Translations under genes and position numbers: made by a program
Shown here: positions 9,894-63,589 of the stretch, one piece after another
How the letters are laid out: each line of letters opens with the position of its first letter
Position numbering within the stretch: position 1 is the stretch's first letter
IMG/VR virus record: IMGVR_UViG_3300035670_000067
Coordinates: 46,385 to 110,384 of that record
DNA: 64,000 nt
Source: a virus
Direction: 5' to 3' (one strand)
The notes under the pieces: generated by a model
Database searches by the model: none
Seen by the model: the letters and a program-made list of their open reading frames with translations, nothing else
What the model was told of the DNA's origin: nothing

Positions 9894-10701
9894 GTGACAC
9901 TTCTATCACTTTGCCAACGCCAGAAGTAGTTTTGACACTAGCTTCCATAAGTCCTCTGCGTATTGCAGATTGGACTTCTGTATCCTTAACATGTAATCCT
10001 ATCAGCTCAACTATAGTTCTAAGAATAATCTTGAATCCGTCAGGCGTCAAGAAAAAGTCTGATTTTCTTTCGACTTTATCTATTCTCTCTATTGACTTGC
10101 CTATTGAGTCAACCAATCTGGATATTCTATCTATTACCTGCCCATCAGTAAGTGAAGTTTCATTATCCACAATTTCTTTGATCAGAAAGAATTTCTCACC
10201 ATTTCCCAAATGCTCTGCGGATAACGTCTCTTCTATGGCCTTAAGAAGTTTGTTGGGATTCTTTACTGGCTTATGCCTACTGAACCTATCTATGTATTGC
10301 GTAAGCATAACGCGCAGTGTGGCTAATTCTTTCTTGTGATCCAAAATATCTGGATCATTAATGAAAACAGTTAACACATCTGCCAATTGTTCGGTATACA
10401 CACCCTTATACTTATCTAAGGCGGATGCAGTCCCGCTAACTAAGGCTCTCGTATTTGCTCCACCATGGAATCTACAATATAAACTTCCATCAGATGCTGC
10501 TCTTTTACATCTAACTTTAGGCAGATCATATAACTTTTTATTCTCTTCGTCTCGCTGATGCTTCATCCTAAAGCATCGCAACTTGCCACCCTTTACTCTA
10601 TGTTCAATGGGAATATCTTCACCAGACATCCCTATAAGATGCCCGTGTTCTTTATAAAGTTGGCGTCTTGCCTTCTTTTCTTTTGCAAAGTCTCTGGTCA
10701 T
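9874..10701 (-). CDS. Probable terminase small subunit or DNA-binding packaging protein
   Basis: 275 residues with a Cys-x-x-His-Gly-Gly motif (LYCRFHGGANTRA, near residue 77) preceded by KVRCKRAASDG. This putative metal-binding element is common in phage proteins located next to large terminases and in HGG-type small terminases. The rest is helical with many charged residues. The position just upstream of terminase supports a packaging role. Assignment rests on motif and position, not on a full-length match. Confidence 0.6.
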   Translation of the reverse strand: MTRDFAKEKKARRQLYKEHGHLIGMSGEDIPIEHRVKGGKLRCFRMKHQRDEENKKLYDLPKVRCKRAASDGSLYCRFHGGANTRALVSGTASALDKYKGVYTEQLADVLTVFINDPDILDHKKELATLRVMLTQYIDRFSRHKPVKNPNKLLKAIEETLSAEHLGNGEKFFLIKEIVDNETSLTDGQVIDRISRLVDSIGKSIERIDKVERKSDFFLTPDGFKIILRTIVELIGLHVKDTEVQSAIRRGLMEASVKTTSGVGKVIEVSHEDVKT

Positions 10702-10747
10702 GTTTCTTTCCGTCTAATAGAAAGAATAACCAGCTGGAACAATCTAA

Positions 10748-11155
10748 TTAGTTCTTAGTTAACCATTCAAATATGGCTCTTATAACAGCCATCAATGTAA
10801 CCGCTGATATTCCACTTCCCGCCACTACAGCGGCAGTTCTTTTCCTACTTGGTTTTCTGCCGCGCAGCCATTCTATATCCCCCTCCATTTTCAAAATCTT
10901 TTTAGAAATACAGATATCGTTAACTTCCATTTTCTCAATTTGTCCACTCATAGAATCTATTTGTCCACGCATATTATCTATAGAAGTCTTATGTCCCTCT
11001 AACATCTGCCTTATACCGACCACCCTACCCAAGGGATCGCCAACAATCGCTTCCTTTAATACGTTTAACGAATCATCTATACTATCAAACCGTCTATCGC
11101 CGGATTGCTTATGTTCGCGACATTCTTTTATAGATACTGGGCGATCATCAGACAT
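10748..11155 (-). CDS. Coiled-coil protein with C-terminal membrane anchor
   Basis: 135 residues. Heptad-like helices run through residues 20-95 (repeated IDSMSGQIEKM-type segments), then basic RGRKPSRKR, then one hydrophobic span (AAVVAGSGISAVTLMAVIRAIF). This layout resembles haemolysin XhlA-like or lysis-associated membrane proteins of phages, but the family is not certain. The stop lies in the gap before the small-terminase candidate. Confidence 0.6.
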   Translation of the reverse strand: MSDDRPVSIKECREHKQSGDRRFDSIDDSLNVLKEAIVGDPLGRVVGIRQMLEGHKTSIDNMRGQIDSMSGQIEKMEVNDICISKKILKMEGDIEWLRGRKPSRKRTAAVVAGSGISAVTLMAVIRAIFEWLTKN

Positions 11156-11745
11156 TAGGTGTTCTTATCTATGTGTTCGTACCATTCTAATCTAACATTC
11201 GTCAAATTTGAATTTGTTCCTGAAGTTAGTCTAAGCAAGTACTTTGTATTTCTCTTCAAGATCAATTCTTCATCATTTCTAACTATCGAAGCTGATCTGG
11301 CTTGCGCTGATGCACCACCGCCCTTATAAGTATGGATCAACCTTCCATCTGTTGAACCGCCAGTTATTCCCTTGTGAATAGTGACTGTCGCAGCAGTCGA
11401 ACTATTCCTATTATTATTTCCAACAGTTTGTAAAGTAGTTCCAACTCTATCTGAATCTTCATATAAATCAAATTGCGTTATAGCCGAACCATCTAAATCA
11501 AACAACATATGAGCATATTTGGTTGAATTCGGTGTAGTGATCAAATAAACCTGAGCTTCTGAACTATTCAGTGCTACTGAATCGGTATAAATGAAGTGAG
11601 ATCCTGCATGGATCTCATGATGCGCGTAATCTATTATCTGAAGTGTATTCGTAGTCTTATCAACGCCAGAAATCCCATTAACCCATTTAATCCCACCAAT
11701 AATCAGTGGTTTTATGAGTCTTTCTATAGCTGTTGATATCACCAT
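11155..11745 (-). CDS. Probable virion structural protein
   Basis: 196 residues, rich in beta-type Ser/Thr/Gly/Asn sequence, with an N-terminal helix (ISTAIERLIKPLII) followed by IDYAHHEIHAGSHF and a conserved-looking middle (HMLFDLDGSAITQFDLYE). This kind of sequence is frequent in short decoration or tail-associated proteins of large phages. Its start overlaps the stop of the upstream 94-aa gene. Function is inferred from location and composition only. Confidence 0.6.
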   Translation of the reverse strand: MVISTAIERLIKPLIIGGIKWVNGISGVDKTTNTLQIIDYAHHEIHAGSHFIYTDSVALNSSEAQVYLITTPNSTKYAHMLFDLDGSAITQFDLYEDSDRVGTTLQTVGNNNRNSSTAATVTIHKGITGGSTDGRLIHTYKGGGASAQARSASIVRNDEELILKRNTKYLLRLTSGTNSNLTNVRLEWYEHIDKNT

Positions 11746-14755: not shown

Positions 14756-15127
14756 CTAGTTTTGCTCAAAACCGTCTTCTTTTTGATCAACTTTTTCTGT
14801 TTTCTCTTCGTTTTTTACCTCTTCTTTCGTCGTTTCTTCTGCGATTTCTTCGTCTTTCACAAGCATCGGCTTAGGCATCAAACGTGCTCGGTTGATGCCA
14901 TTTGTCCCCTTTGACTTGCCATATTGTGAAAGACTTTGAATGAATTGTTCCTTGTCAAAACTCTTGTGATTTCCAATTGTGACAATGTCATGATTATCTC
15001 TGACCGCCACGGCTAACGTAGCAAGTAGACCAATCATCTCATCGCGGCTCATAAACCGGACAGCAACTGGAACTTCAACCGAGTTGACAAGAATTTCCTG
15101 ATTACCATCGATCGTCTTAACGAGCAT
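14756..15127 (-). CDS. Unknown 123-aa protein with acidic tail
   Basis: The first 85 residues look folded (ILVNSVEVPVAVRFMSRDEM; AVAVRDNHDIVTIGNHKSF) and the last 35 are almost all Glu/Lys/Thr/Val (EEIAEETTKEEVKNEEK). No family recognised. Its start overlaps the epimerase end by 11 bases, so it follows the epimerase on one transcript. Confidence 0.6.
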   Translation of the reverse strand: MLVKTIDGNQEILVNSVEVPVAVRFMSRDEMIGLLATLAVAVRDNHDIVTIGNHKSFDKEQFIQSLSQYGKSKGTNGINRARLMPKPMLVKDEEIAEETTKEEVKNEEKTEKVDQKEDGFEQN

Positions 15128-15968
15128 TTTGATAAAACTCCACTTGTGATTTTATGAGTTCTGTAATGCTTCTCTGTTGCGTGTGAATGGATTTCCATGT
15201 CGGACAGCATTCCAATTTTAATGGATCATACGGTGGGAGCTCCTTATATTGTGGGTTTGCTTGTTTATTTGTGACCAGTTCGACTATCTTCAGGAGATCA
15301 TCTAAAGAGATACTTTGTCCAGTGACATTGGAAATTGTTGATGTCTTACTATCTATCTTTTCAACAATGGCGTCTACGATTTTCAGCACATCAACAAATT
15401 CTCTAATCGGCGAGCGTCCGCGTTTTCTGTAGATCGTCAAGGGTTCTCCATACAGAACATGTCTAATCATCCGCGGAATGATGTGAGTCTCGTTGATGTG
15501 CGCTTCGCCATACTGCCCACTTGCGCCAGTAACATTGAAAAATCTCAAAATATTGTATTTCGTAGAATACCTCTTAACTAGAAGTTCCTGCATCAATTTG
15601 GTCATACCATAGTGGTTTATAGGCTCTAAACGACTTTCTTCCGTTATCATATCTTTTTTATTGCCATAAACTGAACAAGAAGAGGCTAAAATAACCGGGC
15701 AACGGTAACGGGCAAGCAACCGCCGCAGTTCAATTACATTGTTTTCGAAGTATTCATACGGCTTTTCTTCGCCTTCCGAAACGTATGCGTATGATCCTAA
15801 GTGAATAATTAGATCCGGTTGATTGTGGATATCAAGCGAATATGGAATGGTTGGATTCAAATTATAATGCCGTCCGCCGGTGTCGAAGAGCATTAGCTGG
15901 TGATTCTTCAATCTTTCGCAGAGGAACTGTCCGATGTAGCCCTTGTGTCCGATGATAAGAATTTTCAT
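15117..15968 (-). CDS. NAD-dependent sugar epimerase (GalE-like SDR)
   Basis: 283 residues from the ATG at 15968, which has AAAGG eight bases upstream; upstream in-frame codons look like untranslated leader. It opens with ILIIGHKGYIG (the NAD-binding G-x-x-G-x-x-G loop). It also has the SDR catalytic triad region ASSCSVYG with YGMTK, and NVTGASGQYGE in the substrate loop. It probably interconverts UDP-hexoses for the glycosyltransferases encoded elsewhere in the window. A second Rossmann enzyme of this kind lies at 1589-2434. Confidence 0.88.
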   Translation of the reverse strand: MKILIIGHKGYIGQFLCERLKNHQLMLFDTGGRHYNLNPTIPYSLDIHNQPDLIIHLGSYAYVSEGEEKPYEYFENNVIELRRLLARYRCPVILASSCSVYGNKKDMITEESRLEPINHYGMTKLMQELLVKRYSTKYNILRFFNVTGASGQYGEAHINETHIIPRMIRHVLYGEPLTIYRKRGRSPIREFVDVLKIVDAIVEKIDSKTSTISNVTGQSISLDDLLKIVELVTNKQANPQYKELPPYDPLKLECCPTWKSIHTQQRSITELIKSQVEFYQNAR

Positions 15969-16662
15969 TTTAGGAACCTTTTGTGTTGTGCATTGTGCAT
16001 TGTACAAAGGTAATAACACTGCAAAAAGCCATGTTTGCCGCATAACTGCAAAAAAAACATGCCGTATTGTGCCGTGCCGTATTGCCGCAAAACTGTGTAT
16101 TGTTTCGTTTTTATGAAATCTGTTCTATAGAATTTGGATCTTGAGTCTGTAAATGGAATCAAGTGATCAAAGATTCAGCAGTCTATGAATCATTCATCTG
16201 TAGAATCTTAGATTCAATAGTTTGTTCAGTTCTTATGAGGCGGGTGTGCCCCCCCAACAAAAAGTTGCTATTTGAAAATAAAAGAATTCAAATTATTCTC
16301 CATATATACCCCAGGTAAGGGGCATGGTTGTAGGTTATATGGATATTCAAAATTTCCGGACGTCTTTTTGGAAATCTGGATTTGCAGTGCCACATTGTAC
16401 CGCGCCGTATTGTACAAAGTAATTCGTAACCGATTTGTGTATAAACGAAATCGGCTTGAAAATTTGTCATATAATCCGGGAGGAATTGTGTATAAACGAA
16501 ATCGGCTTGAAAATTTGTTATATAACTTTGGTATCGTACAAAGTAATTCGTAACCGATTTGTGTATAAACAAATTTAAGCCGAATTTTTGTTATATGTTT
16601 GTGGGGGAATATCACACGCCGGCCAAAGGCTCCCCCCGCCACAAGGGCGGGGGGGCATCGCA
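15969..16662. repeat. Non-coding repeat region with two interleaved direct repeats
   Basis: No gene is supported. A 35-bp sequence starting GTACAAAGTAATTCG is present identically at 16412-16446 and 16536-16570. A second, about 38-bp, sequence starting GTGTATAAACGAAATCGG occurs at 16437-16474 and 16488-16525, overlapping the first. A third, diverged copy lies at 16561-16600. The AT content and spacing resemble iteron-like binding arrays. The left part (15990-16100) repeats short words such as GCCGTATTG. Confidence 0.6.
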
Positions 16663-30378: not shown

Positions 30379-30719
30379 TGGTGGACCTGTCGGGAGTTGA
30401 ACCCGAGTCCTATATAGCTTCTACAATGAAGTTGTTACATGCTTGTTCAATCGTTTATGGTACGATTAACAGAACCATGACTGTCTTTCCAGTCCGTCAT
30501 TCGTATCTCTTCCGACTGTCACCCGGAACCACCGGGATCGTCAGGCTGATTTACTGCTCAGCGAGCGAAGCAGGCTCCGTTAGGCCGCGAGGGCCACGGG
30601 AGCGGGGAAGGACAGAACGGGTTTGGCAGTTCTGTTTTGACCGGAGTTTTGCGAGGCCAACGGTCATCCTCGGCATGAATTCATTATCTCCACTATACAG
30701 TCGAAACCTTTTCAGGCCC
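30379..30719 (-). ncRNA. ssrA: Transfer-messenger RNA (tmRNA)
   Basis: A 341-base RNA with the tRNA-like ends of tmRNA: 5' GGGCCTG pairs with 3' CAGGTCC before an encoded ACCA, and the T arm is GGGTTCAACTCCC. The 5' half has GGTTTCGAC and CATGCCGAGG...TTGGCCTCG, matching pseudoknot 1 of E. coli tmRNA. Aligning to E. coli places the resume codon at GCC (30625-30627). The tag frame then reads AKPVLSFPAPVALAA and TAA (30580-30582). tmRNA frees stalled ribosomes and marks the product for proteases; the ALAA end is the usual protease signal. Confidence 0.92.
30580..30627 (-). CDS. tmRNA tag-peptide reading frame
   Basis: 15 codons, AKPVLSFPAPVALAA, ending LAA-stop as in nearly all tmRNA tags. It is proline-rich and longer than most bacterial tags (usually 8-12). 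The resume site is inferred by alignment to the E. coli layout. Confidence 0.75.
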   Translation of the reverse strand, partial: AKPVLSFPAPVALAA

Positions 30720-45242: not shown

Positions 45243-46238
45243 ATCTAACTCATTTATCTTATTTACGATATTGAGCTGTTCGTCCAAAACGAGAAGAGTT
45301 ATATGTCTATCGGCGAACTCCACGCCTGGGATATATTCTGTGAACACTATTACATAGCGTCCATTTTGAGTTTTTGTAACATACGGATAAGAGCCGCAGA
45401 CTTCTGATAATTGATATATTTTGTCGTTCTTCTTCCTCGCTTCTTCACCAACGGCTCTTATAGATAACTGCTTTCGTGATATACAAGCGTTATACACAAT
45501 CCACGGATCTTCACCAACATTGAACAGACAAACACTTTCTGAATAATTCTTTATGAAATCAAACGGTTTATCGTTTGAACGAACTATTTCGTTTTTCCCA
45601 ATATAACTGATTTCAGTATCTGGCACATCCCAGACTATACTGTTCCACATCGGTCTTAGTGTGAATAAAAGTCCTTGCTTGTGCTGGATTATGGTTGGCT
45701 GTATTGTTTTCACCTTACTGGATCTAAGGATCAACTTCCTGGAAACTTCATAATGATCTTGATTCATCCAATTTGAGTTCGCTTCTAAAATAAATCCACA
45801 CCCAAACCATTCGTCATAAGCTGGAATATACGTAGTTTCTCCAATATGTATCGGCGGATTGCGAACACCCAAATAATTCAGACGATAATTTTCTATTGCC
45901 CCATCCGTATAAGTATCGTTTTCACCTTCACCAAGATCATAGAATAACAGATCTGTATACCGCCATTTGTATCTTGGTGCATACGCCACCGCTTCATCTC
46001 TGAATATGTTACAGGCCAAAATCAAATGATTATTGTGAACAAATAAAATTGGATTCCCAGTACCGTAATTGAAGTGCCACAGGATTTCCATATTCTCCAT
46101 GCTTGGCCATTCAATACGTCCAACAACAACGTGCTGATCTTCTGCGCCTTCGGATGAACCGATATAAAACGCTACATACAGATATTCACCAAATTCGCAA
46201 ACACTTGCGCTATGAGCACCCATCTCGATTTCGTTCAT
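45210..46238 (-). CDS. Sialidase-like (BNR/neuraminidase fold) protein
   Basis: 342 residues. HSASVCEFGEYLYVAFYIG and SSEGAEDQHVVVGRIEWPS near the start, GNPILFVHNNHLILACNIF, and later GSYPYVTKTQNGRYVIVF fit the six-bladed propeller seen in BNR_2 sialidase-like proteins. There, H-x-S and G-x-E-G/D mark blade ends. Possible roles: removing host surface sugars, or handling the phage's own glycans. Catalytic Arg triad not traced by eye. Starts four bases inside the next upstream gene. Confidence 0.65.
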   Translation of the reverse strand: MNEIEMGAHSASVCEFGEYLYVAFYIGSSEGAEDQHVVVGRIEWPSMENMEILWHFNYGTGNPILFVHNNHLILACNIFRDEAVAYAPRYKWRYTDLLFYDLGEGENDTYTDGAIENYRLNYLGVRNPPIHIGETTYIPAYDEWFGCGFILEANSNWMNQDHYEVSRKLILRSSKVKTIQPTIIQHKQGLLFTLRPMWNSIVWDVPDTEISYIGKNEIVRSNDKPFDFIKNYSESVCLFNVGEDPWIVYNACISRKQLSIRAVGEEARKKNDKIYQLSEVCGSYPYVTKTQNGRYVIVFTEYIPGVEFADRHITLLVLDEQLNIVNKINELDLKIFLEPKIS

Positions 46239-47080
46239 TGTAGAAAAGACTCCGTTGCAGTTTTCATAAAATCACAATATTGATTGAGCCACCATGAGAT
46301 ATCCGTGACGTTTATTGGAATCTGCTTATAGAATAGATTGATGATTAGGTCGTCAAGCTGATTACTCCAACGTTTGAAGAGACCATTGCTTAGGGCTAAC
46401 GTAGGCTTGCCACACAAATACGCTTCATAAAGTAACGTAGAATTTAAACCTATCACTTCATCACAAAATGAAATGGCTTCTCTAGACGTAATTGAATCTG
46501 CAACACGTATGCGAGGATGAGATCTAACGTTATAACTAAGACATCTTGGGTGAGGTTTTACAAGTAGAAAGCTGCCTGGTCTAATTTCCAAAACATGTTC
46601 AACAAAAACGTTCATATCTTTTATTTCGGAATCCCTCATTATCTGAACATCATCTTCTAGCTGTAATGGAACCAGAACATGATTGCTCTTTGTGTTAGAG
46701 ATTCCTTTTCTATATTTATTCTTCAGTTGAGCCAATTCTTCATATTGTAATTGATTTGGGACAATGTCAAGCTTTTCCATTAAAGAAGACTTAGCACAAA
46801 TGCCACTTCTATCTATATGATAATGTTTATCCTGTGGAAGCCAGCCAACTTCAAGAATAGCATGTGGAATCCTAGCTTCCACAATTCTATTCAGCATTCG
46901 CTCTGTTTGATAACTTGCCCCGTTCCATATAAAGGCAAACTGATATTTCTTAACATCTACACCATCTGGATTCACATCAACATTCCAATCAACCGTACCT
47001 CTCATTTGCATATATTCAAGAAATCTTGGCAACCAGACCGCTCCGTGCCTTTTGCATGGAGTGTAGACTAATATCTTCAT
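46235..47080 (-). CDS. Capsule-polysaccharide-type glycosyltransferase
   Basis: 281 residues with VLVPLQLEDDVQIMRDSEI, FLLVKPHPRC and DEVIGLNSTLLYEAYLCGK. This is the order found in capsular polysaccharide (KpsC/KpsS-like, PF05159) and related sugar transferases. Stands in the second sugar cluster. Confidence 0.7.
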   Translation of the reverse strand: MKILVYTPCKRHGAVWLPRFLEYMQMRGTVDWNVDVNPDGVDVKKYQFAFIWNGASYQTERMLNRIVEARIPHAILEVGWLPQDKHYHIDRSGICAKSSLMEKLDIVPNQLQYEELAQLKNKYRKGISNTKSNHVLVPLQLEDDVQIMRDSEIKDMNVFVEHVLEIRPGSFLLVKPHPRCLSYNVRSHPRIRVADSITSREAISFCDEVIGLNSTLLYEAYLCGKPTLALSNGLFKRWSNQLDDLIINLFYKQIPINVTDISWWLNQYCDFMKTATESFLQ

Positions 47081-47609: not shown

Positions 47610-47903
47610 CTACTCCACAGGTTCTAGAAAGATGTCACCATCTTTCATGGTGAAATCATATTGCGGCAAATCTTCGATATCATCAGTCCCAGTTAGAACA
47701 AAACATTCAGAAACTCCAATCATATTGAATTTATTATTAGATGTTTCCAATAATCCTATTGGATGGAATACTTGATATAGCGCGGAAGCTATATACCAAT
47801 TCTTACGATCTAACAAAATATCTGCCGGTATCCAAACCTTCCCTGCCGGCACCGCCATTCCGTCATCGTCCGGAATAATATTTTCAAATGGGAAATCAAT
47901 CAT
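47610..47903 (-). CDS. Unknown 97-aa acidic protein
   Basis: Acidic beta-type protein (FENIIPDDDGMAVPAGKVW; GVSECFVLTGTDDIEDLP). No family recognised. Located between a methyltransferase and a glycosyltransferase, so possibly part of the glycan module. Confidence 0.55.
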   Translation of the reverse strand: MIDFPFENIIPDDDGMAVPAGKVWIPADILLDRKNWYIASALYQVFHPIGLLETSNNKFNMIGVSECFVLTGTDDIEDLPQYDFTMKDGDIFLEPVE

Positions 47904-48514
47904 ATATCCAACCTATTCGGCATCTTACCCCAGATTTGAAGATATCTTTTTCTATCATTTTCCCATATCCACTTTTTATCTCTATTTGATTTTGAATAAC
48001 CGTAATGATAAACTTGACTACGATTGTGTTGTAAGATCTTTTTATTCAATCCCATCACGCGCATCAACAAATCCCAATCAGCATATGCCACCTTGAAGGA
48101 TTCATCAAATTTGCCAATATCTTCGAACAAACTTTTCCTAATAAAAAACATATTGCATGGCATAAGTTTCTTTTCAGTAAATTCTTCGTTACCTTCAACA
48201 GGAGTACTTTGATTCGTCGAAACAGGAAACACCAACCCAACATCTTCTTCAAACGTTTTCTCAGCCATTCTATTCATATCGACATGAACATCTATATCAA
48301 AATCCATGAAACACAATATCTCGCGTTGCGCTTGATTTGCTAATCTATTCCTAACGATTGGCAGATTTACTTTAGATATCGTATTATCAAATGTAATCCA
48401 TTCACCACCAGAATCTATAACGTAAGAATGTAATTGAAAATGTAAGGTCTTATAGCGCTCTCTTTCTGCGGCTATATTATAGTATTGAACAATGATAAAA
48501 CTAATTGGCACCAT
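47900..48514 (-). CDS. Family 2 glycosyltransferase
   Basis: 204 residues: ISFIIVQYYN opening, NRLANQAQREILCFMDFDI with DFDID as metal site, MPCNMFFIRKSLFEDIGKF and ESFKVAYADWDLLMRVMGL as the GT2 acceptor end. Shorter than most GT2 enzymes but complete in motifs. Confidence 0.8.
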   Translation of the reverse strand: MVPISFIIVQYYNIAAERERYKTLHFQLHSYVIDSGGEWITFDNTISKVNLPIVRNRLANQAQREILCFMDFDIDVHVDMNRMAEKTFEEDVGLVFPVSTNQSTPVEGNEEFTEKKLMPCNMFFIRKSLFEDIGKFDESFKVAYADWDLLMRVMGLNKKILQHNRSQVYHYGYSKSNRDKKWIWENDRKRYLQIWGKMPNRLDI

Positions 48515-48524
48515 TTTTCTTCTC

Positions 48525-48908
48525 CTACTTAAATCTTAGAAAGTGATAATCGTCCCAGTTAAATTCTTCGTCAAACGAAGTGAATAAGCTTCTATCATCT
48601 ATATAAATGTCTGCGAATATTTTACGCGGATACCATTCGTATTTGAGATGTCCATCTCTACAATTTTCATTTATTGAATCAAATGTCAGTCCTTGTGTCT
48701 TACAGAATTCCACTGCCGAATCTAACAATTTTCTATCGGAAGTGTTTTCTCTGCATGTCCACAATACAATCTTATCACCAACACTACGTCTTGCAATAAG
48801 CCAATCAAATAGCTTCTTGTTTGGAATATATGTAGATATATCGTCGCTCAATTTTCCATATGGAACTTCCTTGATAAGTGTTCCATCAAAATCTACTGCG
48901 ATTATCAT
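48525..48908 (-). CDS. HAD-family phosphatase-like protein
   Basis: 127 residues starting MIIAVDFDGTLIKE (D-x-D nucleophile motif), then VLWTCRE (motif II Thr), and FADIYIDDRSLF (motif IV DD). A small HAD enzyme, frequent in phages, probably acting on nucleotides or sugar phosphates. Overlaps the glycosylase start by four bases. Confidence 0.82.
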   Translation of the reverse strand: MIIAVDFDGTLIKEVPYGKLSDDISTYIPNKKLFDWLIARRSVGDKIVLWTCRENTSDRKLLDSAVEFCKTQGLTFDSINENCRDGHLKYEWYPRKIFADIYIDDRSLFTSFDEEFNWDDYHFLRFK

Positions 48909-49756
48909 TTCAGTATTTCTTTCAGCTTTTTCAGATCTTCTGTAAACAGCTTTCGCTTATCTGGTTTATTCATGTTGAGTGGACTGGGATGCAATAGCGG
49001 AAATACTTTGCCATATTCTGTTTCGTAAACTTTACCGTGACAATCTGTTATTGTGCGGTCATTGCCAAGCAAAGCCTTCAATGCGAAATTGCCAAGAGTC
49101 ACTATGATCCTTGGCTTCATTATCTCAATTTCTTGTTTTAGATATGCGAAACAATTTTTGATCTCTGATGGAACTGGCGCTCGATTGCCTTCCGTAAAGC
49201 ATTTCACCACGTTCGTAACATAAAGCTCTTTCCGCGGCACTCCAACATGCTCTTCAAACATTTGATCAAAGAACTGGCCAGAACGACCAACAAACGGTCG
49301 CCTGATTTTAGTTTCTTCCTTGCCAGGATTCTGACCAACAATCATAATCTTGGCCCTTACACGCATACTACTAAAAACGTTTCCAGGATATCCTTCTACG
49401 AATTGTCCACCGATATTGCATTTCTTGCAACTGAGACATGAGGCTTTTACCCTTTTCAACATATGCTTTCTATACAGATTTTCCTGAGGCTTCATGGAGC
49501 AGTCATCCATATCTATCCAGTGGAATTTTCCATCTATTGGACTATTGAGGAGAAACCATGTCCGGACCACATCTACAGGTTGAACAGGTTGTTTATCTTC
49601 CATCTCCATTTTATATTGTTCATCATCTTCATCCTCGTGAATATATGTCACATTTGGATCCGGCTTTATCTGCCCTAAATGCTCAACATCTATTTTGTAA
49701 ACAGGATAAAATTTATCCTTTAGGAACCACTCGCTATTCGTTACTTTGACTTCCAT
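48905..49756 (-). CDS. Uracil-DNA glycosylase, family 4-like, with N-terminal extension
   Basis: 283 residues. The first 85 are an acidic extension. Then CLSCKKC begins a four-Cys iron-sulphur site, IMIVGQNPGKEETKIRRPF holds the uracil-binding G-Q-N/A-P-G motif, GRSGQFFDQMF the helix, YVTNVVKCF the next Cys, and LLHPSPLNMN the active-site H-P-S/H. It removes uracil from DNA or polices dU in a phage with altered thymine metabolism. Confidence 0.85.
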   Translation of the reverse strand: MEVKVTNSEWFLKDKFYPVYKIDVEHLGQIKPDPNVTYIHEDEDDEQYKMEMEDKQPVQPVDVVRTWFLLNSPIDGKFHWIDMDDCSMKPQENLYRKHMLKRVKASCLSCKKCNIGGQFVEGYPGNVFSSMRVRAKIMIVGQNPGKEETKIRRPFVGRSGQFFDQMFEEHVGVPRKELYVTNVVKCFTEGNRAPVPSEIKNCFAYLKQEIEIMKPRIIVTLGNFALKALLGNDRTITDCHGKVYETEYGKVFPLLHPSPLNMNKPDKRKLFTEDLKKLKEILK

Positions 49757-50773: not shown

Positions 50774-51052
50774 TCACTTACTATAGAATTCCTTTTCCCG
50801 CTTTTCTGCATCTCTTCTGGCTAAATGCTTAAGTCTATTTCTTTCAGCGTTTGCCCAGTATGAATCTGGCTTATTGCTGATATCACCCATCCCTTCAGCA
50901 AATGTGAAAAACATTCTGTCAGCGATGATTCGTTTTGTTGTTTTGGCGTGACATCTTGTGCATTGAGGCTTGAAAATATCTCTATTTTCCATGGAAACAT
51001 TGTGCCAATCGAATTTATTCCCACACTCTAAACAACGATAAGTGTACGTCAT
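50774..51052 (-). CDS. Zinc-ribbon protein (FmdB-like)
   Basis: 92 residues from ATG 51052 (ATGA overlap). YTYRCLECGNKFDW and FKPQCTRCHAKTTKRI match the FmdB-type zinc ribbon; the rest is a basic helix. Possibly an accessory of the primase with which it is coupled. Confidence 0.68.
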   Translation of the reverse strand: MTYTYRCLECGNKFDWHNVSMENRDIFKPQCTRCHAKTTKRIIADRMFFTFAEGMGDISNKPDSYWANAERNRLKHLARRDAEKREKEFYSK

Positions 51053-52353
51053 CTTATGTTCTCCAGTTCTTGCCATAAATGGCTTGTTGATATTTGATAA
51101 TTCCCTTGATTCACCTGTTCGCGCATCCGTTCACGAATTTCATCGGATTCATTTTTCATTATGGATTCTACTTGTTGGCAATGAACGAACTTAAACGGCA
51201 AACGGACCGGTTTCCCTAAAATAGCATTAGCGCGATACATTATTTCTCTATCTTCAAATCCCCATCCCTTCAATTGACTGTGGAACCCTCCTATCATAAC
51301 ATAAGCGCTCCAATCAAAGAACACACTGCCACCAGTAGCATCAGGAACAACAGCACCGTCGTATTCCACATTAGAATAGCACATTCCATATGAATTCTTG
51401 CAAGACAACATCGAATTAATCCAGCTCTTATCTGAGCAATACAAATCTCTGTCTTGGAATATATATTTGATTGCATATCTTCCTGCTAAAAATCCGTGAT
51501 TGAATAATATGCCTCTACTTGGCATATCATATGGATATCTTACATCAACTCCAGTCATCGTAGGATAGCCACAATTTCCACACACTATTCTAGTTTTTAT
51601 ATCTTCGATATCAATCAGATTTTCTATGGCTTTGTCGTATTTGCCATACACTGGAATGATCATAACAGCTGGATAATTTTGTTTCAGTAAATCAACAGTC
51701 TTCCTCTTATTAGTATCGCTAACATAATGATCCGCTATATCAACTCCATTACAAGATATTCTGTGGATACCACAAATATCTTCATGCTGTAGATATATCG
51801 GCTGAGTGTATTTACTCAAACATTCTAGTGTATCCCCACTTCTTTCATACGGTTTTTGTATTTCGTTTTGATGACTGCGCACAAAAGCCGTAGAGGCAAT
51901 TAACAGGCTGGGGTGTATATAACCCCTAGTGTGCCGCACACCGGCCAAAGACGCACCCTGTAACGCGTCTTGAAGCCTTTCTAACCAGTGCCTATGCAAC
52001 ACCATACAGTCTGAGTCTAACAGAACAAATTTTTCTGTCTTTATGCCTTCCAATAACCTAATTATTCCGCGCTTGTGGTTATCGGAACCTCTAACAGTAT
52101 TGTCATTCTGCATGAATTCTAATTCGTTTATGATATGGTGCTGATGAAGAGTTCTCAGCACCGGCCGCATATCTTCATACATATCATCCATCATATACAC
52201 CAAGTTTATCGTAACATTATTCAAATCAACATTAGTGATTAGACTATGAAGGAAACATTCCAGTACTAGACGTGAACCGTGTAGTACTGACACAACAGTT
52301 ATTTGTTGCGTCTCTTTTTCTGGAGTCTTTTTTTTAATGTATCGAAGTAGCAT
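51049..52353 (-). CDS. Two-domain glycosyltransferase with galactosyltransferase-type C terminus
   Basis: 434 residues. The first domain is ITVVSVLHGSRLVLECFL with FVLLDSDCMVLH as GT-A metal site. The second has FQDRDLY as metal site and GGFHSQLKGWGFEDREIMY, the Glyco_transf_7C signature. A bifunctional or chain-extending enzyme for the glycan module. It lies in the replication region, next to the primase. Confidence 0.82.
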   Translation of the reverse strand: MLLRYIKKKTPEKETQQITVVSVLHGSRLVLECFLHSLITNVDLNNVTINLVYMMDDMYEDMRPVLRTLHQHHIINELEFMQNDNTVRGSDNHKRGIIRLLEGIKTEKFVLLDSDCMVLHRHWLERLQDALQGASLAGVRHTRGYIHPSLLIASTAFVRSHQNEIQKPYERSGDTLECLSKYTQPIYLQHEDICGIHRISCNGVDIADHYVSDTNKRKTVDLLKQNYPAVMIIPVYGKYDKAIENLIDIEDIKTRIVCGNCGYPTMTGVDVRYPYDMPSRGILFNHGFLAGRYAIKYIFQDRDLYCSDKSWINSMLSCKNSYGMCYSNVEYDGAVVPDATGGSVFFDWSAYVMIGGFHSQLKGWGFEDREIMYRANAILGKPVRLPFKFVHCQQVESIMKNESDEIRERMREQVNQGNYQISTSHLWQELENIR

Positions 52354-54565: not shown

Positions 54566-55279
54566 TTACAGTGACATATCGTAATAACCACTCCTGACAC
54601 CGCGCCTTCCAGATCTCAATTCAGATTGGCATTTGTCTTTCCATTCCTGATAGCCAAGATCGTTTTCGACTGGGTGAGTCACATAATTCTTGGTATCTAC
54701 ATAAACCGGGATGTTCTTAGACATGGCAGCATTCCACAATGACGCTTCGTTGCCGCCATATAATGATCCTGTAGCAAACATGCCAAGCTCAATAAATAAT
54801 GAAGTACGTATGGTTAACCCTGCCCCAGCTACGCCGCGCAAGCAAGTTCTAAACACTTTGTAATGTTCCATTTCTTCAAAGATTGAATGTATTTTTTCGT
54901 AACAGTGACACCTATTGGTAAATTGTTCTGGAACGACAATGGCTTTGTGATTTATTGCGAAATCAAACAGATCTCTCAAAGTTCCCCTATGTACAAGTAT
55001 GTCAGCGTCAGACACACAGGCAACTGATTCAATATCTTCTTTCAGCAAAACTCCCATCATTGTATTAACGCCAACGGCCTTCCCGACATTCTTACCAAAT
55101 GTGAAGACTCTAGTGAAATCACATCTTTCTAACGTTACTCTTGTGTTCAAATCGTTTGGACTATTGTTCCAAATCCAAACCTCATCTACTTCATCCAGCG
55201 AATGTTTCAGCGTTTCAAGCGATTGACGCAATGAATCTGCTTTATAGTAAGTTGCGAACATATAGACTTTTTTCATCAC
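54566..55279 (-). CDS. Family 2 glycosyltransferase
   Basis: 237 residues: YMFATYYKADSLRQSLETL opening with VWIWNNSPND, FTFGKNVGKAVGVNTMMGV, VSDADILVHR as metal site, and LFIELGMFATGSLYGGNEA as the acceptor end. It is coupled to the Dam-type methylase by a four-base overlap. Confidence 0.82.
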   Translation of the reverse strand: MMKKVYMFATYYKADSLRQSLETLKHSLDEVDEVWIWNNSPNDLNTRVTLERCDFTRVFTFGKNVGKAVGVNTMMGVLLKEDIESVACVSDADILVHRGTLRDLFDFAINHKAIVVPEQFTNRCHCYEKIHSIFEEMEHYKVFRTCLRGVAGAGLTIRTSLFIELGMFATGSLYGGNEASLWNAAMSKNIPVYVDTKNYVTHPVENDLGYQEWKDKCQSELRSGRRGVRSGYYDMSL

Positions 55280-55953
55280 CAGTTTCCCTTACAGTACCAA
55301 TCTTTTCTTTCTTCTGAGCCACCAGTCCTGATCCTGGGCACTCGCTTAGTTAACCAACACACCCATTCATTAGAAATGGCTTCTATCGGGCATTGATAAG
55401 TCAATACGTAGGGGACTTCCAGCTTCTTAATCCATTTAGTGAATGTTTTGATGTTTAGATCTTCGACACCATAATTCCCGTCGGTGCCCAAATAAGGCGG
55501 ATCAATAAACAGAAAATCTCCGTCTTTCTGTTTATACGTCCTGTAAGACCCGTGTATAAATTTCCAATTATGAATTTTACGCATAGCGATTTTTGTATCT
55601 TCTACAGGCAACCTATGCTGCGGATATATCATCCAAGATGATAACTGACCAACATAAATTCCAGCCAAATTCACTCGAAGATAATCGCGCGCTTCTTCTC
55701 TTATACTAAGCGTCTTGACACTGATCTTATCTCCTTCGTAAACACGCAAACCATCTAAATCGGGCATAGTCCTCAACCATCTCAACATAGATATCAGGCT
55801 TTTGTTCAGATCTATACACAAAGCTGAATAATCGTACTGTAGTGAAAACGCGCACGAACCACAAAACGGCTCAACTATCCTTTTAGTTCCCTTGGGGAAT
55901 TGAATGCTTGGAAATTTTGCTTTATTCCCAGAATATTTGAATAGCCTATACAT
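55276..55953 (-). CDS. D12-class (Dam-type) adenine DNA methyltransferase
   Basis: 225 residues: FKYSGNKAKFPS opening, RIVEPFCGSCAFSL (SAM-binding F-x-G-x-x-x), and FLFIDPPYLGTD (catalytic D-P-P-Y). The order is that of Dam and restriction-related N6-adenine methylases. The target is not visible from the sequence, but GATC is a common target of this class and GATC is strongly concentrated in the accessory region. Overlaps the next gene by eight bases. Confidence 0.88.
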   Translation of the reverse strand: MYRLFKYSGNKAKFPSIQFPKGTKRIVEPFCGSCAFSLQYDYSALCIDLNKSLISMLRWLRTMPDLDGLRVYEGDKISVKTLSIREEARDYLRVNLAGIYVGQLSSWMIYPQHRLPVEDTKIAMRKIHNWKFIHGSYRTYKQKDGDFLFIDPPYLGTDGNYGVEDLNIKTFTKWIKKLEVPYVLTYQCPIEAISNEWVCWLTKRVPRIRTGGSEERKDWYCKGNW

Positions 55954-57094
55954 TCAGCATCTCCACAGAAACCCTTTCATACGAAGCGTTGTCTTTCAGC
56001 GCATTGTGTCGTATCCAATAATAGGCAGCCAACTTCATATCTGTATTGCGCAGATTTCTGAATACATTCTTATATTCGCTGTAGAATTGTATTGGATCCA
56101 TTTTCTTGGCCGCAGCATATATCGCCATATAATACAGATCTTCACCCATCACATTTCTAGAAAAAGAAGTGCGCAATCTGTTAAGATTACAATCTAAATC
56201 TTCTTCCCATAGAGATTGCACATACTTTACGAACCGCTTTGCTTCGCTGATATTGTAATAACAGTCATCGCCAATAAATGGTTCATATGTATTTACCGGA
56301 ATGCAATAATGCGGCACATTCGCCATCAAAATCTTTTTGAGCCTATCCTTCATATTTTCATAAACATGAAGAGAACCGGCGAAATGATAATAGCGACCGA
56401 CACCCACCCCCAAGATGCGCGACAGCATACCCTGAATGAAAGAAAATTCAAACACATTGATTTGTGAAAATCCAAACAGTAAATCGTTCGATCTCATAGT
56501 AACGAAGCAATCAAGCTTGCCGTTATTGATCTTATATTGAATGTAACCAGTGCAAGGATAATCCAAACTATCTCCAGCACGACAATCCTTTGCCGGATCC
56601 CAAATTGACATCACCGCCCGCTTACTGGTCGGATCCGCTTTCAGCGTTTCACAAACATATTGTATTTGATCAACGCTTTTCAAATTCGTAACTGCGTAAT
56701 TTTCTACTGCCCTATTTTCAATGGCGCTAGCCTTATAGAATCTGCTGTATTCAACATCGCTTAACCCATAGGAACGACGCAGCCTTGGCCCATAGCCCGC
56801 CCGCCATTGCACCCCGTCATCAGCATATTGCGGCGCTCTAGGTAAGAAGTGCTTTAGAACTGAAACATCTCTATCTCCACTAAGAACCCATATAGTTTCA
56901 AACAAAGAAGCAAATGGATTTCCATGTCTTTCCACCACAAGCGGAATGCGATATGGCCCAACGATTTGAATCATCATTGGTGAAACTTCAAAGATATAAT
57001 TGGCTGATGCTCCAACTCTTTTTACCTCGACCCTTTCACCATGAACGTCTATCATCTCCACTGCCCACAAAAACGCTTGTGTCATGTCAATCAT
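55946..57094 (-). CDS. Thymidylate-synthase-family enzyme, candidate dUMP hydroxymethylase
   Basis: 382 residues, long for ThyA. Catalytic Cys in LDYPCTGYIQYKI; phosphate/nucleotide region MRSNDLLFGFSQINVFEFS; HFAGSLHVYEN near the end. In ordinary ThyA the middle motif is R-S-x-D-x-x-L-G-L-P-F-N. The form here, with F-S and an extra residue before I-N, is closer to the diverged phage branch that includes dUMP and dCMP hydroxymethylases. The two genes upstream fit an hmdU pathway. Activity (methyl or hydroxymethyl) must be tested. Confidence 0.75.
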   Translation of the reverse strand: MIDMTQAFLWAVEMIDVHGERVEVKRVGASANYIFEVSPMMIQIVGPYRIPLVVERHGNPFASLFETIWVLSGDRDVSVLKHFLPRAPQYADDGVQWRAGYGPRLRRSYGLSDVEYSRFYKASAIENRAVENYAVTNLKSVDQIQYVCETLKADPTSKRAVMSIWDPAKDCRAGDSLDYPCTGYIQYKINNGKLDCFVTMRSNDLLFGFSQINVFEFSFIQGMLSRILGVGVGRYYHFAGSLHVYENMKDRLKKILMANVPHYCIPVNTYEPFIGDDCYYNISEAKRFVKYVQSLWEEDLDCNLNRLRTSFSRNVMGEDLYYMAIYAAAKKMDPIQFYSEYKNVFRNLRNTDMKLAAYYWIRHNALKDNASYERVSVEMLNV

Positions 57095-57807
57095 TATTGA
57101 TTCCTTTCATGTCTGTTAGCTACATCTGCCCAATCGTTATTTTCAGTTACCGAACCTGCATATTCAATAACCGGCGGCTTTTTGAGATCTTCGAATTTAT
57201 ATGTACTGGCCAGATTTTCTATGAAGTTCTTAATCTTAAGCTGCCAATCGGTTCTCATTTTACTATTGAAAAAGTAAACATCAGCATGTGATCTTATTAT
57301 CGGATAAAACGATTCGGACTTATGCCGCGACGCTTCGTTTGTACTTCTTGGATCATCCGTATCTATGAAAACCAAAGTAAATCCATTATTCTTTACATAT
57401 TCTAATTCTGCAGGACGCCTTACATCCTTAATGCAGAACCCAAGCCTAACCGCTCCAAGTTCTTGCATTGTTTCGCGCAAACGAATGAACTCTTCTTGCA
57501 CTGAATCAACAAACACTCCGGGATAGATTTCTGGCAACATATCAAATGCCTGCCACACCATGCGCGGAGTATATTGCACCTTCGTTTCTGGATTAGTGTA
57601 AACTATCCTCGTCTCTTTCTCTGAACTTTCGTAATCAAACTGCATAAATCCAAATATGGATTTAACTATTTTCTTGAGCTGATCGCTAAAGCTAGCCACA
57701 GTAAAGCAATATTCCATTTCAAGCGTGTCTGTGACAGTGTCCTTACCTGAATATTTTGGACCACTGAATGCCAATTTCGTTACAGATATAACATTTTCTT
57801 CACCCAT
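57094..57807 (-). CDS. Deoxynucleoside monophosphate kinase (T4 gp1-like)
   Basis: 238 residues from ATG 57807 (eight-base ATGGGTGA overlap). Walker A is FSGPKYSGKDTVTD, followed by VASFSDQLKKIVKSIFGF and RMVWQAFDMLPEIYP, the conserved series of phage dNMP kinases. It would raise hmdUMP or other dNMPs to diphosphates for DNA synthesis. Confidence 0.82.
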   Translation of the reverse strand: MGEENVISVTKLAFSGPKYSGKDTVTDTLEMEYCFTVASFSDQLKKIVKSIFGFMQFDYESSEKETRIVYTNPETKVQYTPRMVWQAFDMLPEIYPGVFVDSVQEEFIRLRETMQELGAVRLGFCIKDVRRPAELEYVKNNGFTLVFIDTDDPRSTNEASRHKSESFYPIIRSHADVYFFNSKMRTDWQLKIKNFIENLASTYKFEDLKKPPVIEYAGSVTENNDWADVANRHERNQ

Positions 57808-58837
57808 TGTGCACACCTAGGATCTTTGCGACATGCAGCATGTTCGCAGGTTTGTTGTATTTATTGAATGTCCACTGAGCGGGTTTCCAGCTAACATCTC
57901 TATTCGCGTCTATGCTTCTAGCCCATCCGTCTCTGGACATATATCTATTACGAGGCCGCCCGCGATCCTCATAAGCTTTCATGTATTTGCTAAACTCACA
58001 AAGACAATTTTCCAAGGACATTACAGTAAGATAAGGATACGGCTGATCCTCAAATGTTTTCAGAAAATCTACATCGTAAAGTCTAGAATTCTTTAACTGA
58101 TTATTACGCAACCAATAATTCAACTCTTCGTATCCATTATCTTCTATGGTCTTTTCGGTAAACAACTCATGCAGTCCGCGTTTAGCCCCCGGTCCATCAA
58201 TAACAAAGTCATCTTCTCCAAACTTAGTACGATCTGAATAGCTTAAATCTACTGCAATCTGATATCCTAAGAACGGCCCTATCCCCTGAATGCTACGCAG
58301 ATAATAGTAGCATTCTTCCATTGATTTGTCGAACGCGTCACGTAAACAGCCAGACTTTTCATCATCATTGAGCTGATCGGTTATTTGCCCAAGCAACAAA
58401 GAAATTCTTGTAATCTTATCCATACCAAATCCGAACATACTGTACCCGCTGACAGTAAACGCATTGGTGAAAACATTTTCATTAGCTGATAAATTCAATA
58501 GTCTTAATCGCAACCCTTCTTGATCATATTTTCTGTAATCTGGCATATGGCCATGATACAGAAATGTCTCTATCTTGTTGAACAATCTGTATAAGACATG
58601 ATTAAAGAAGAACGAAGCATCATCAACATATTCTTGCTTCTGCAACCATTCTGTCACAAATCTAGTGCCGCGGTCTAATTCGCGGAAGATATTGGTGAAT
58701 TTGAAATCTGCTAATATTGGATCTTTAGTCCAAGGTGGTGGAAGGTTTTGTAGTTCTTTTCTTTTGTATATTTCGTGTCGTTCTGCTATGAATTTCCAAA
58801 ACAAACCCATATTTTCTTTATAATAGAATACTGACAT
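57800..58837 (-). CDS. 5-hmdU DNA kinase-like protein (HMUDK/thymine hypermodification family)
   Basis: 345 residues. FWKFIAERHEIYKRKELQN, PPPWTKDPILADFKFTNIF, RELDRGTRFV and later SIQGIGPFLGYQIAVDLSY and DGPGAKRGLHELF follow the helical domain family of phage 5-hydroxymethyl-dU DNA kinases and alpha-glutamyl/putrescinyl thymine pyrophosphorylases (families studied in ViI, M6, SP10 and phi W-14). These enzymes activate hmdU in DNA for replacement by amines or sugars. No P-loop is seen here, so it may work with a partner. Confidence 0.75.
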   Translation of the reverse strand: MSVFYYKENMGLFWKFIAERHEIYKRKELQNLPPPWTKDPILADFKFTNIFRELDRGTRFVTEWLQKQEYVDDASFFFNHVLYRLFNKIETFLYHGHMPDYRKYDQEGLRLRLLNLSANENVFTNAFTVSGYSMFGFGMDKITRISLLLGQITDQLNDDEKSGCLRDAFDKSMEECYYYLRSIQGIGPFLGYQIAVDLSYSDRTKFGEDDFVIDGPGAKRGLHELFTEKTIEDNGYEELNYWLRNNQLKNSRLYDVDFLKTFEDQPYPYLTVMSLENCLCEFSKYMKAYEDRGRPRNRYMSRDGWARSIDANRDVSWKPAQWTFNKYNKPANMLHVAKILGVHNG

Positions 58838-58840
58838 AAA

Positions 58841-59302
58841 CTATTTCCACCAATGAGGAGTTTCTCTTTTTGTCCAAACAGCCAGATGCCTTTTGCATTC
58901 TATCATATATTGTCTATTCGACTTTATTGGCTCCAACTTTTCATAACCAGATTGAGTTAAGAAATACAATTTTCCATCAGGTAATTCTAGCGGATGTTCT
59001 TCTACCCATTCAAGAATCCTGCCGCAACTATGTTCGTTGCCATATCTGTAGTAATGTTCAGCAAATATGCACCAGCCTAGCCTAAGCGCGAACTTAAAAT
59101 TTTCGCTATTTTCATAAACCCATCTTTGAACACGTATATTCATGCGCTTATCTAATTCTCTGTACGGCATATCACCATCATATCCATTCCGGTGATATGC
59201 CGTACAAAGCAACTGAGCAATTTCTAGCAGAATCTTCATGTGCCTGTCCATGTAGTATTCGGCACACTTGCGAGGATTCTTGTCTAGAAAGAAAATATTC
59301 AT
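58841..59302 (-). CDS. Conserved phage protein of unknown function
   Basis: 153 residues starting MNIFFLDKNPRKCAEYYMD, then HMKILLEIAQLLCTAYHRN and ending HLAVWTKRETPHWWK. This opening (D-x-x-P-x-x-C/A-A) and the C-terminal W-x-K-R-x-x-P-x-W recur in a phage family with no known activity that often sits in nucleotide-metabolism modules. Here it lies between the hmdU kinase-like gene and a DNA methylase. Confidence 0.65.
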   Translation of the reverse strand: MNIFFLDKNPRKCAEYYMDRHMKILLEIAQLLCTAYHRNGYDGDMPYRELDKRMNIRVQRWVYENSENFKFALRLGWCIFAEHYYRYGNEHSCGRILEWVEEHPLELPDGKLYFLTQSGYEKLEPIKSNRQYMIECKRHLAVWTKRETPHWWK

Positions 59303-63073: not shown

Positions 63074-63589
63074 TCAATAGACGCTTTGGATTTTCCTTTT
63101 TATCTTCTCGCGCTTCACCCAACTAGTTACCCCGAATTTAGTCCACATCTTTATCCAGTTCCCACCATTATCTATCAACTCTAGCACCATTTTTTGCTTA
63201 CGCTTAGAAAGCTTAGACAGAATATCTTTGAGATCTATCATTTCTTTCTGAGCCGCTGGGATCTTTTCCAAATCTGTGTAATAATCGCTATCATTATCGG
63301 AATTGTTGGGAGAATTCTTATATCTGTTGATGTAAGTATAAGTCTCCTTCTGCATAGTCCGTATGCGATTCTTGGTCGCTATAAACAAGAATCGTAGATA
63401 CTTATTATCTTCTTCATAATAATCTTCGAAATGCTTGAAGAAGATTATGACTGCTTCTTGTATCAATTCTTCATCTGTTGCAGTCCAAAACCCACACTGT
63501 TTTCTCAATTTCTTTGTTTGAGAAACAAGTTTAGTTTTTATTCGTTCGAATATTTTATGCGAAGCTAGGACATTATATTGCGTCATCAT
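63074..63589 (-). CDS. Sigma-70-like transcription factor
   Basis: 171 residues. ATDEELIQEAVIIFFKHFE, then YLRFLFIATKNRIRTMQKE resembles region 2 (core and -10 binding). After an Asn/Asp-rich linker, LKDILSKLSKRKQKMVLEL starts a region 4-like part. It could direct host polymerase to phage promoters such as the GTCTAGAG elements (inference). Overlaps the upstream gene by 17 bases. Confidence 0.65.
   Translation of the reverse strand: MMTQYNVLASHKIFERIKTKLVSQTKKLRKQCGFWTATDEELIQEAVIIFFKHFEDYYEEDNKYLRFLFIATKNRIRTMQKETYTYINRYKNSPNNSDNDSDYYTDLEKIPAAQKEMIDLKDILSKLSKRKQKMVLELIDNGGNWIKMWTKFGVTSWVKREKIKRKIQSVY

Follow-up and report, generated by a model that had tools for sequence, protein, structure and literature searches.

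Bacteriophages such as ViI, M6, SP10 and phiW-14 rebuild the thymine of their DNA by means of a 5-hydroxymethyldeoxyuridine monophosphate (hmdUMP) synthase, kinases and proteins of the 5-hydroxymethyldeoxyuridine (hmdU) DNA-kinase family. The DNA of phiW-14 contains putrescinyl-thymine, that of M6 and Yuavirus contains 5-NedU, and SPO1 replaces thymine with hmdU. Here we describe three overlapping genes on the minus strand of a 64,000-nucleotide stretch of viral DNA (hereafter the window), which comprises bases 46385–110384 of the virus record IMGVR_UViG_3300035670_000067. The genes encode a 345-aa protein with the helical domain HMUDK_hel, a deoxynucleoside monophosphate (dNMP) kinase of the T4 gp1 type, and a thymidylate synthase (TS)-family protein that we predict to be a deoxyuridine monophosphate (dUMP) hydroxymethylase. 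We put at roughly 0.72 the probability that this trio forms the central part of an hmdU module of the phage, acting in the three steps set out below. The locus is best read as that of a phage with hmdU-containing DNA because the TS is of the hydroxymethylase type, because the kinase gene is placed as it is in ViI and phiW-14, and because the match to HMUDK_hel is strong.

The record as a whole is linear, totals 110,384 bases and may be incomplete. It is that of a tailed phage, with genes for a portal, major head protein, prohead protease, tape measure and baseplate wedge, as well as for a DnaE-type polymerase, DnaB helicase, UvsX and SbcCD, and its genes are tightly packed on one strand. The portal shares ~25% identity with those of known phages, and no close relative of the phage was found. 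The DNA of the trio had no similarity match among 50,697 phage records, and the 345-aa and TS proteins, used as single-sequence queries, retrieved no close relatives from viral contigs. Judged by its sequence, this is a previously unseen phage without a close sequenced relative.

A TS-family enzyme with the signature of dUMP hydroxymethylases

The TS-family gene (window positions 55946–57094, minus strand) encodes a 382-aa protein (PF00303, 84.6 bits; phrog_5131, E = 2e-60) that contains the block FGFSQINVFEF, in which a first-pass annotation of the stretch had seen a diverged active site. We aligned the protein with E. coli ThyA, T4 gp42, SPO1 gp29, M6 gp58 and the enzymes of ViI and phiW-14. 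In ThyA numbering it retains Cys146 (in DYPCTG), Arg127, the RS-D169 block, His207 and Tyr209, and at position 177 it has the Asn of ThyA and of the SPO1, M6, ViI and phiW-14 enzymes, where T4 gp42 has Asp. It does not keep His147 or Trp80 of ThyA; position 147 is Thr in the window protein and in T4 gp42, and Asn in the enzymes of SPO1, M6, ViI and phiW-14. One extra residue precedes Asn177 in the window protein and in its SPO1, M6, ViI and phiW-14 counterparts, but not in ThyA or T4 gp42, giving the motifs FGFSQIN (window), FGTGSIN (phiW-14), WGMSSIN (ViI), WGAYGAN (M6) and WGTFGAN (SPO1). The closest equivalents of the window block are LFGTGSINPFEF of phiW-14 and WFGFSAINIFEW of a bacterial protein (locus L156). 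Alignment with dUMP hydroxymethylases, which had been proposed as a check at first pass, thereby brought out Cys146, Asn177, a replacement of His147 and the one-residue insertion as common to them and to the window protein, and the seemingly diverged block is, on this alignment, a signature of dUMP hydroxymethylases.

In a quick tree with long branches, the window TS clusters with the enzymes of phiW-14 and ViI and with two bacterial proteins from helical-domain loci, with a Shimodaira–Hasegawa-like approximate likelihood-ratio test (SH-aLRT) support of 93 that is not decisive in such a tree; a branch of 2.38 with a support of 100 separates it from E. coli ThyA. From its active-site residues and from the tree we predict that the window enzyme is of the dUMP-hydroxymethylase type. 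An ordinary thymidylate synthase, in a phage whose DNA has normal T, would likewise belong to the TS family PF00303, but ThyA Trp80 and His147 are not kept, the hydroxymethylase insertion is present, the NCBIfam thymidylate synthase models score the protein at 22–77 bits against cut-offs of at least 108, and the tree places it with hydroxymethylases, so that we give this explanation only a very slim chance.

A second TS-family relative is encoded to the left of the window (G000:C1 16401–17375, locus L002), adjoining the DnaB helicase gene. Its similarity spans ~70 residues and yields 58 bits to a phage TS profile (E = 9e-18; 0 of 200 shuffles matched). It is without the catalytic Cys region and is possibly a dead TS-like partner.

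The dNMP kinase gene is placed as in ViI and phiW-14

Directly upstream of the TS gene lies the gene for the gp1-type dNMP kinase (57094–57816, minus strand). The product has the P-loop GPKYSGKD with its SGKD; its match to PF21448 (27.7 bits) is barely over the cut-off of 27.1, whereas that to phrog_139 is clear (E = 3.7e-23), and we agree with the earlier assignment of the gene to the phage dNMP kinases. Among 40 records, phrog_139 finds its strongest match in T4 (225 bits), in a protein that we take to be gp1; ViI and phiW-14 each have a single matching protein. In phiW-14 the dNMP kinase gene starts at the TS stop codon, and in ViI a P-loop hmdU-DNA kinase gene is followed by those for TS and dNMP kinase, with each gene overlapping the next. 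This pairing of TS and dNMP kinase is the best single argument that the window phage makes hmdUTP. Cells infected with phiW-14 reportedly contain HmdUTP, produced via a phage hydroxymethyluracil synthase (PMC5977210).

Two starts are available to the window kinase, a GTG that gives 240 aa and an ATG at 57807 that gives 237 aa. The kinase and TS genes overlap by 1 nt, and the helical-domain and kinase genes by 8 nt if counted from the ATG; these are the overlaps of 1–8 bases that had been reported for the trio, although the second becomes 17 nt with the GTG start. Overlap by itself is little informative since close packing on a single strand is the rule throughout the record.

A helical-domain protein related to hmdU DNA kinases

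The first gene of the trio (57800–58837, minus strand) encodes the 345-aa protein. Its search against the HMUDK_hel profile (PF18723), another of the checks proposed at first pass, returned 209.4 bits over a cut-off of 25, and the protein keeps 13 of the 13 positions that are invariant in 60 relatives (R20, F47, N49, R52, D55, F189, D197, G215, G217, G221, C280, E281 and K284). It consists of the helical domain alone, without a P-loop, and is not the catalytic P-loop kinase. A structure model of the protein (pLDDT 86.8, pTM 0.84) has as its best viral matches the SP10 '5-hmdU DNA kinase' (E = 1.7e-12) and named helical-domain proteins. Matches to solved structures are weak, and are to the 5-PmdU glycinyltransferase 8z2n (E = 0.018) and to archaeal and bacterial 8-oxoguanine glycosylases. 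Because of the structure matches and a comparison of profiles that links it to the amino acid:DNA transferases (E = 3.7e-5), we place the protein in the fold family of those transferases. Its modeled fold is like that of the helix-hairpin-helix glycosylases.

The helical domain occurs in different arrangements with the P-loop hmdU-DNA kinase. The two are fused in SBSphiC (652 aa, with the TS gene adjoining) and in a viral contig (L034, 615 aa), and they are the neighbors gp55 and gp54 in M6. Two further viral loci have two tandem P-loop hmdU-DNA-kinase genes upstream of the helical-domain gene (L038, 2091–3307; L040, 3091–4313), which suggests two successive phosphorylations. Across 74 viral loci, a TS of the same type as that of the window was found in 34 of 567 gene slots within four genes of the helical-domain gene, compared with 11 of 1050 slots farther off (Fisher p = 2.5e-8, uncorrected for relatedness among loci). 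The association of TS and helical domain in viral loci is beyond chance.

A proposed hmdU pathway and the evidence against it

In the pathway that we propose, the 382-aa enzyme would first move a hydroxymethyl group from methylene-tetrahydrofolate onto dUMP to give hmdUMP, as its active-site residues and tree position suggest. In the second step, for which the family and placement of the gene argue, the gp1-type kinase would convert hmdUMP to hmdUDP, the host nucleoside diphosphate kinase would produce hmdUTP, and the DnaE-type polymerase of the phage would insert hmdU opposite A. Third, the helical protein may bind hmdU in finished DNA and present its hydroxymethyl group for phosphorylation, with either the overlapping dNMP kinase or an unrecognised protein as the partner that transfers the phosphate. 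These parts are not equally firm. That hmdU is made and incorporated, replacing some or all of the thymine, is likely from the gene content; that the helical protein acts further on hmdU in DNA we hold to be somewhat more probable than not. A defined side chain or sugar on the base is not supported. Accepted in part, then, is the suggestion at first pass that the phage carries hmdU or a further derivative: the TS signature, the kinase placement and the helical match favor hmdU, and a derivative is plausible.

Several observations weigh against this pathway. In the TS-family enzyme, Thr147 and Met165 resemble the residues of cytosine-type hydroxymethylases, the solved structure that it matches best is that of the CMP hydroxymethylase MilA, and the position in the tree has only moderate support and long branches; because of these two residues and the MilA match, the base specificity of the enzyme is one that we infer. 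The window kinase is unlike the hmdU-DNA kinases and the TMK-like partners of the helical domain, and its profile scores of -0.5 and 0.7 bits rule it out as an hmdU-DNA kinase or a TMK. At E values up to 10, searches of the 110-kb record returned no P-loop hmdU-DNA kinase (PF18748) and no amino acid:DNA transferase (PF18724), and wider home-made profiles detected neither of them in its six reading frames. Finally, a dTTPase, a dUTPase and a dCMP deaminase were not recognised among the proteins scanned, which represent part of the genes. The match of the 345-aa protein to the hmdU DNA-kinase helical family, seen at first pass, is borne out; the P-loop kinase and the transferase of pathways of the ViI, M6 and phiW-14 type went undetected.

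By comparison, Pfam models matched both PF18748 and PF18724 in ViI and M6 and the transferase PF18724 in phiW-14, and of 34 viral records that encode the helical domain, 5 gave a match to PF18748 and 4 to PF18724. PF18748 misses hmdU-DNA kinases in two loci where the wider profile finds them (L031 and L039), as well as an aligned homolog, gp36 of phiW-14. We therefore rejected the missing PF18748 match as proof of absence. Because the PF18748 and PF18724 models are insensitive and many of the 34 viral records are fragments, the failure to find the kinase and the transferase is only suggestive.

These searches bear on two other explanations. In the first, the phage has the full hypermodification pathway of ViI and M6, and its kinase and transferase are either encoded outside the sequenced portion of the genome or too diverged to see. 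The record is a linear and possibly incomplete contig and the Pfam kinase model overlooks known kinases, both of which fit this explanation, but the wider profile found nothing either, and the 110 kb seem to hold most of the major replication and structural functions; we consider it unlikely, if by no means negligible. In the second, thymine is replaced with hmdU as in SPO1, the base is not altered any further, and the helical protein is vestigial or serves some other function. This would fit the failure to detect the P-loop kinase and the transferase, and in SPO1 we likewise found a hydroxymethylase but no phrog_139 kinase. The helical gene, however, keeps all of the invariant positions, from which we conclude that it is under selection, and it overlaps the kinase gene; we regard a pathway that ends at hmdU as rather unlikely.

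Bacterial and archaeal relatives of the trio

We used a clean TMK profile to call kinases in 78 bacterial and archaeal helical-domain loci. A TMK-like kinase is fused to the helical domain in 12 of these loci and adjacent to it in 9, and 11 of the resulting 21 also hold a hydroxymethylase-type TS. Kinase, helical domain and hydroxymethylase hence form a recurring trio, and the window phage, to judge from its gene families, holds this trio with a gp1-type kinase in it. ImmA/IrrE genes occur in 39 of the 78 loci, and the TMK-HMUDK_hel fusions (L120, L122, L139, L151 and others) are often found in a cassette with ACP, helix-turn-helix (HTH), ImmA/IrrE, MazG and second TS-like genes. HMUDK_hel is sporadic, being present in 4 of 369 gammaproteobacteria, and an ordinary chromosomal gene is ruled out by this distribution.

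The helical domain is accompanied, then, by three types of kinase: the P-loop hmdU-DNA kinase in phages, a TMK-like kinase in bacterial and archaeal loci, where it is often fused to the domain, and the gp1-type gene in the window phage. Having three partners makes the role of the domain itself directly testable, as a DNA-binding adaptor for the kinase or as an independent enzyme. Much as bacteria fuse a TMK-like kinase to the helical domain, the window phage could combine its helical protein with the overlapping gp1-type kinase into a split hmdU-DNA kinase, in which a nucleotide kinase replaces the usual P-loop subunit; we hold this to be doubtful. If it were true, the lack of an amino acid:DNA transferase would leave the DNA with phosphorylated hmdU or with a side chain added by an unrecognised enzyme. 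The structure model of a TMK-helical fusion (pTM 0.57) is not certain enough to tell how its kinase and helical parts are oriented to each other.

The cellular trio connects thymine-modification genes with a possible role in defense. Among the domains of experimentally validated defense units, the DefensePredictor paper includes a 5-hmdU kinase and a thymidylate synthase, and dNMPk stands in the same figure key as these two domains (PMC13092281). A DNA-similarity match to an E. coli defense unit of that paper was rejected, as it was to a tRNA only. The window trio might be viewed not as genome-modification machinery but as a relative, carried by the phage, of bacterial anti-phage cassettes, given those validated units and the bacterial loci that combine a TMK-like kinase, the helical domain and the same type of TS, often with ImmA/IrrE, HTH, MazG and ACP genes. 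But profile searches of the record found no match for ImmA, MazG, ACP or TMK, the window helical protein falls outside the cellular clades, and the gene order is that of hmdU phages, all of which makes such an origin extremely improbable.

Neighboring genes and the question of a sugar-bearing base

In the order of transcription on the minus strand, the helical protein, dNMP kinase and TS are followed by a D12-class adenine DNA methylase (55276–55953; PF02086, 43 bits) and a GT2-family glycosyltransferase (54566–55279; PF00535, 31 bits). Both belong to the same gene run, with overlaps of 8 nt between TS and methylase and 4 nt between methylase and glycosyltransferase, and are candidate pathway members only. 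Immediately upstream of the helical-domain gene is a minus-strand gene for a 153-aa protein of phrog_624 ('DNA binding protein'; 58841–59302, E = 1.4e-25), relatives of which occur in 6 of 80 viral helical-domain loci.

At first pass the many glycosyltransferases had been taken to raise the possibility of a sugar-bearing base, an idea that drew on the presence of such genes and gained no specific support. For the GT2 gene product to glycosylate hmdU in DNA would accord with its place at the end of the overlapping run and with other glycosyltransferase-like genes in the phage. Relatives of it were found, however, neither in the 50,697 phage records nor near any of 160 helical-domain loci, the methylase gene stands between it and the trio, and capsule or epimerase families are those to which the remaining sugar genes belong by their matches, which points to surface sugars; a sugar on the base is thus most doubtful. 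The sugar-related genes of the window (epimerase, capsule-synthesis-like and glycosyltransferase-like; 15117–16043, 46235–47080, 47900–48514, 51049–52353 and 54566–55279) are scattered and not clustered with the trio.

Other features of the phage

A protein of the uracil-DNA-glycosylase superfamily is encoded on the minus strand at 48905–49756 (PF03167, 127 bits), beside a DnaG-like primase gene. In 12 of 80 viral loci a relative is encoded no more than 10 kb from the helical-domain gene, and the window protein is possibly a helper that removes plain uracil.

The DnaE-type polymerase gene (G000:C1 11264–15955, locus L002, left of the window) is split into two open reading frames (ORFs), which flank an ORF for an HNH-type homing endonuclease. 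The first of the two terminates in an intein-like N part (FNR/CVEENQLVL...) and the second opens with an intein-like C part (...VTHN/SHACAYA), and these parts have weak matches to complementary portions of Pfam Intein_splicing. The interrupted gene looks like a split-intein 'fractured gene'. Directly downstream of it, a 286-aa protein (10411–11271 of the same contig and locus) has a very long Glu/Asp/Ala-rich repeat run.

The window also contains a complete tmRNA gene (30379–30719, minus strand; Rfam RF00023, 124 bits) with the tag AKPVLSFPAPVALAA. It is adjoined by tRNA genes, seven of which lie within ~11 kb. A 171-aa protein (63074–63589, minus strand) has a faint match to Sigma-70 region 2; its match to Binary_toxB (20 bits) is below the cut-off, covers 31 residues only and is probably spurious.

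Comparison with known systems

Of the described systems, the Salmonella phage ViI (Vi01) resembles the window in that its gene for a TS of the dUMP-hydroxymethylase type overlaps a gp1-type dNMP kinase gene, and it too has an HMUDK_hel protein (280 bits). Unlike the window phage, ViI has a P-loop hmdU-DNA kinase adjoining the TS as well as an amino acid:DNA transferase, and its helical gene is ~50 kb from its TS gene. The Delftia phage phiW-14 has a TS with FGTGSIN..FEF, a gp1-type dNMP kinase gene directly after it, and an HMUDK_hel protein named in UniProt, but differs in having an amino acid:DNA transferase.

The Bacillus phages SP10 and SBSphiC have the same helical domain, and in SBSphiC a TS gene adjoins it; in both phages, however, a single protein of 637–652 aa comprises the domain and the P-loop kinase. 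In the Pseudomonas phage M6 (Yuavirus), HMUDK_hel is encoded by a separate gene, gp55, near the TS gene gp58, but M6 has the P-loop kinase gp54 and the transferase gp51, and no phrog_139 kinase was found in it; the closest phage match of the window TS has only 28% identity. The bacterial TMK-HMUDK_hel-TS cassettes (L138, L148 and L161; fused in L120) likewise set a nucleotide kinase, the helical domain and a hydroxymethylase-type TS side by side, but their kinase is TMK-like and often fused, many include ImmA/IrrE, MazG and ACP genes, and their hosts are cellular. The window phage would thus be one more phage that likely has rebuilt thymine, with a set of genes unlike the pathways worked out for ViI and M6.

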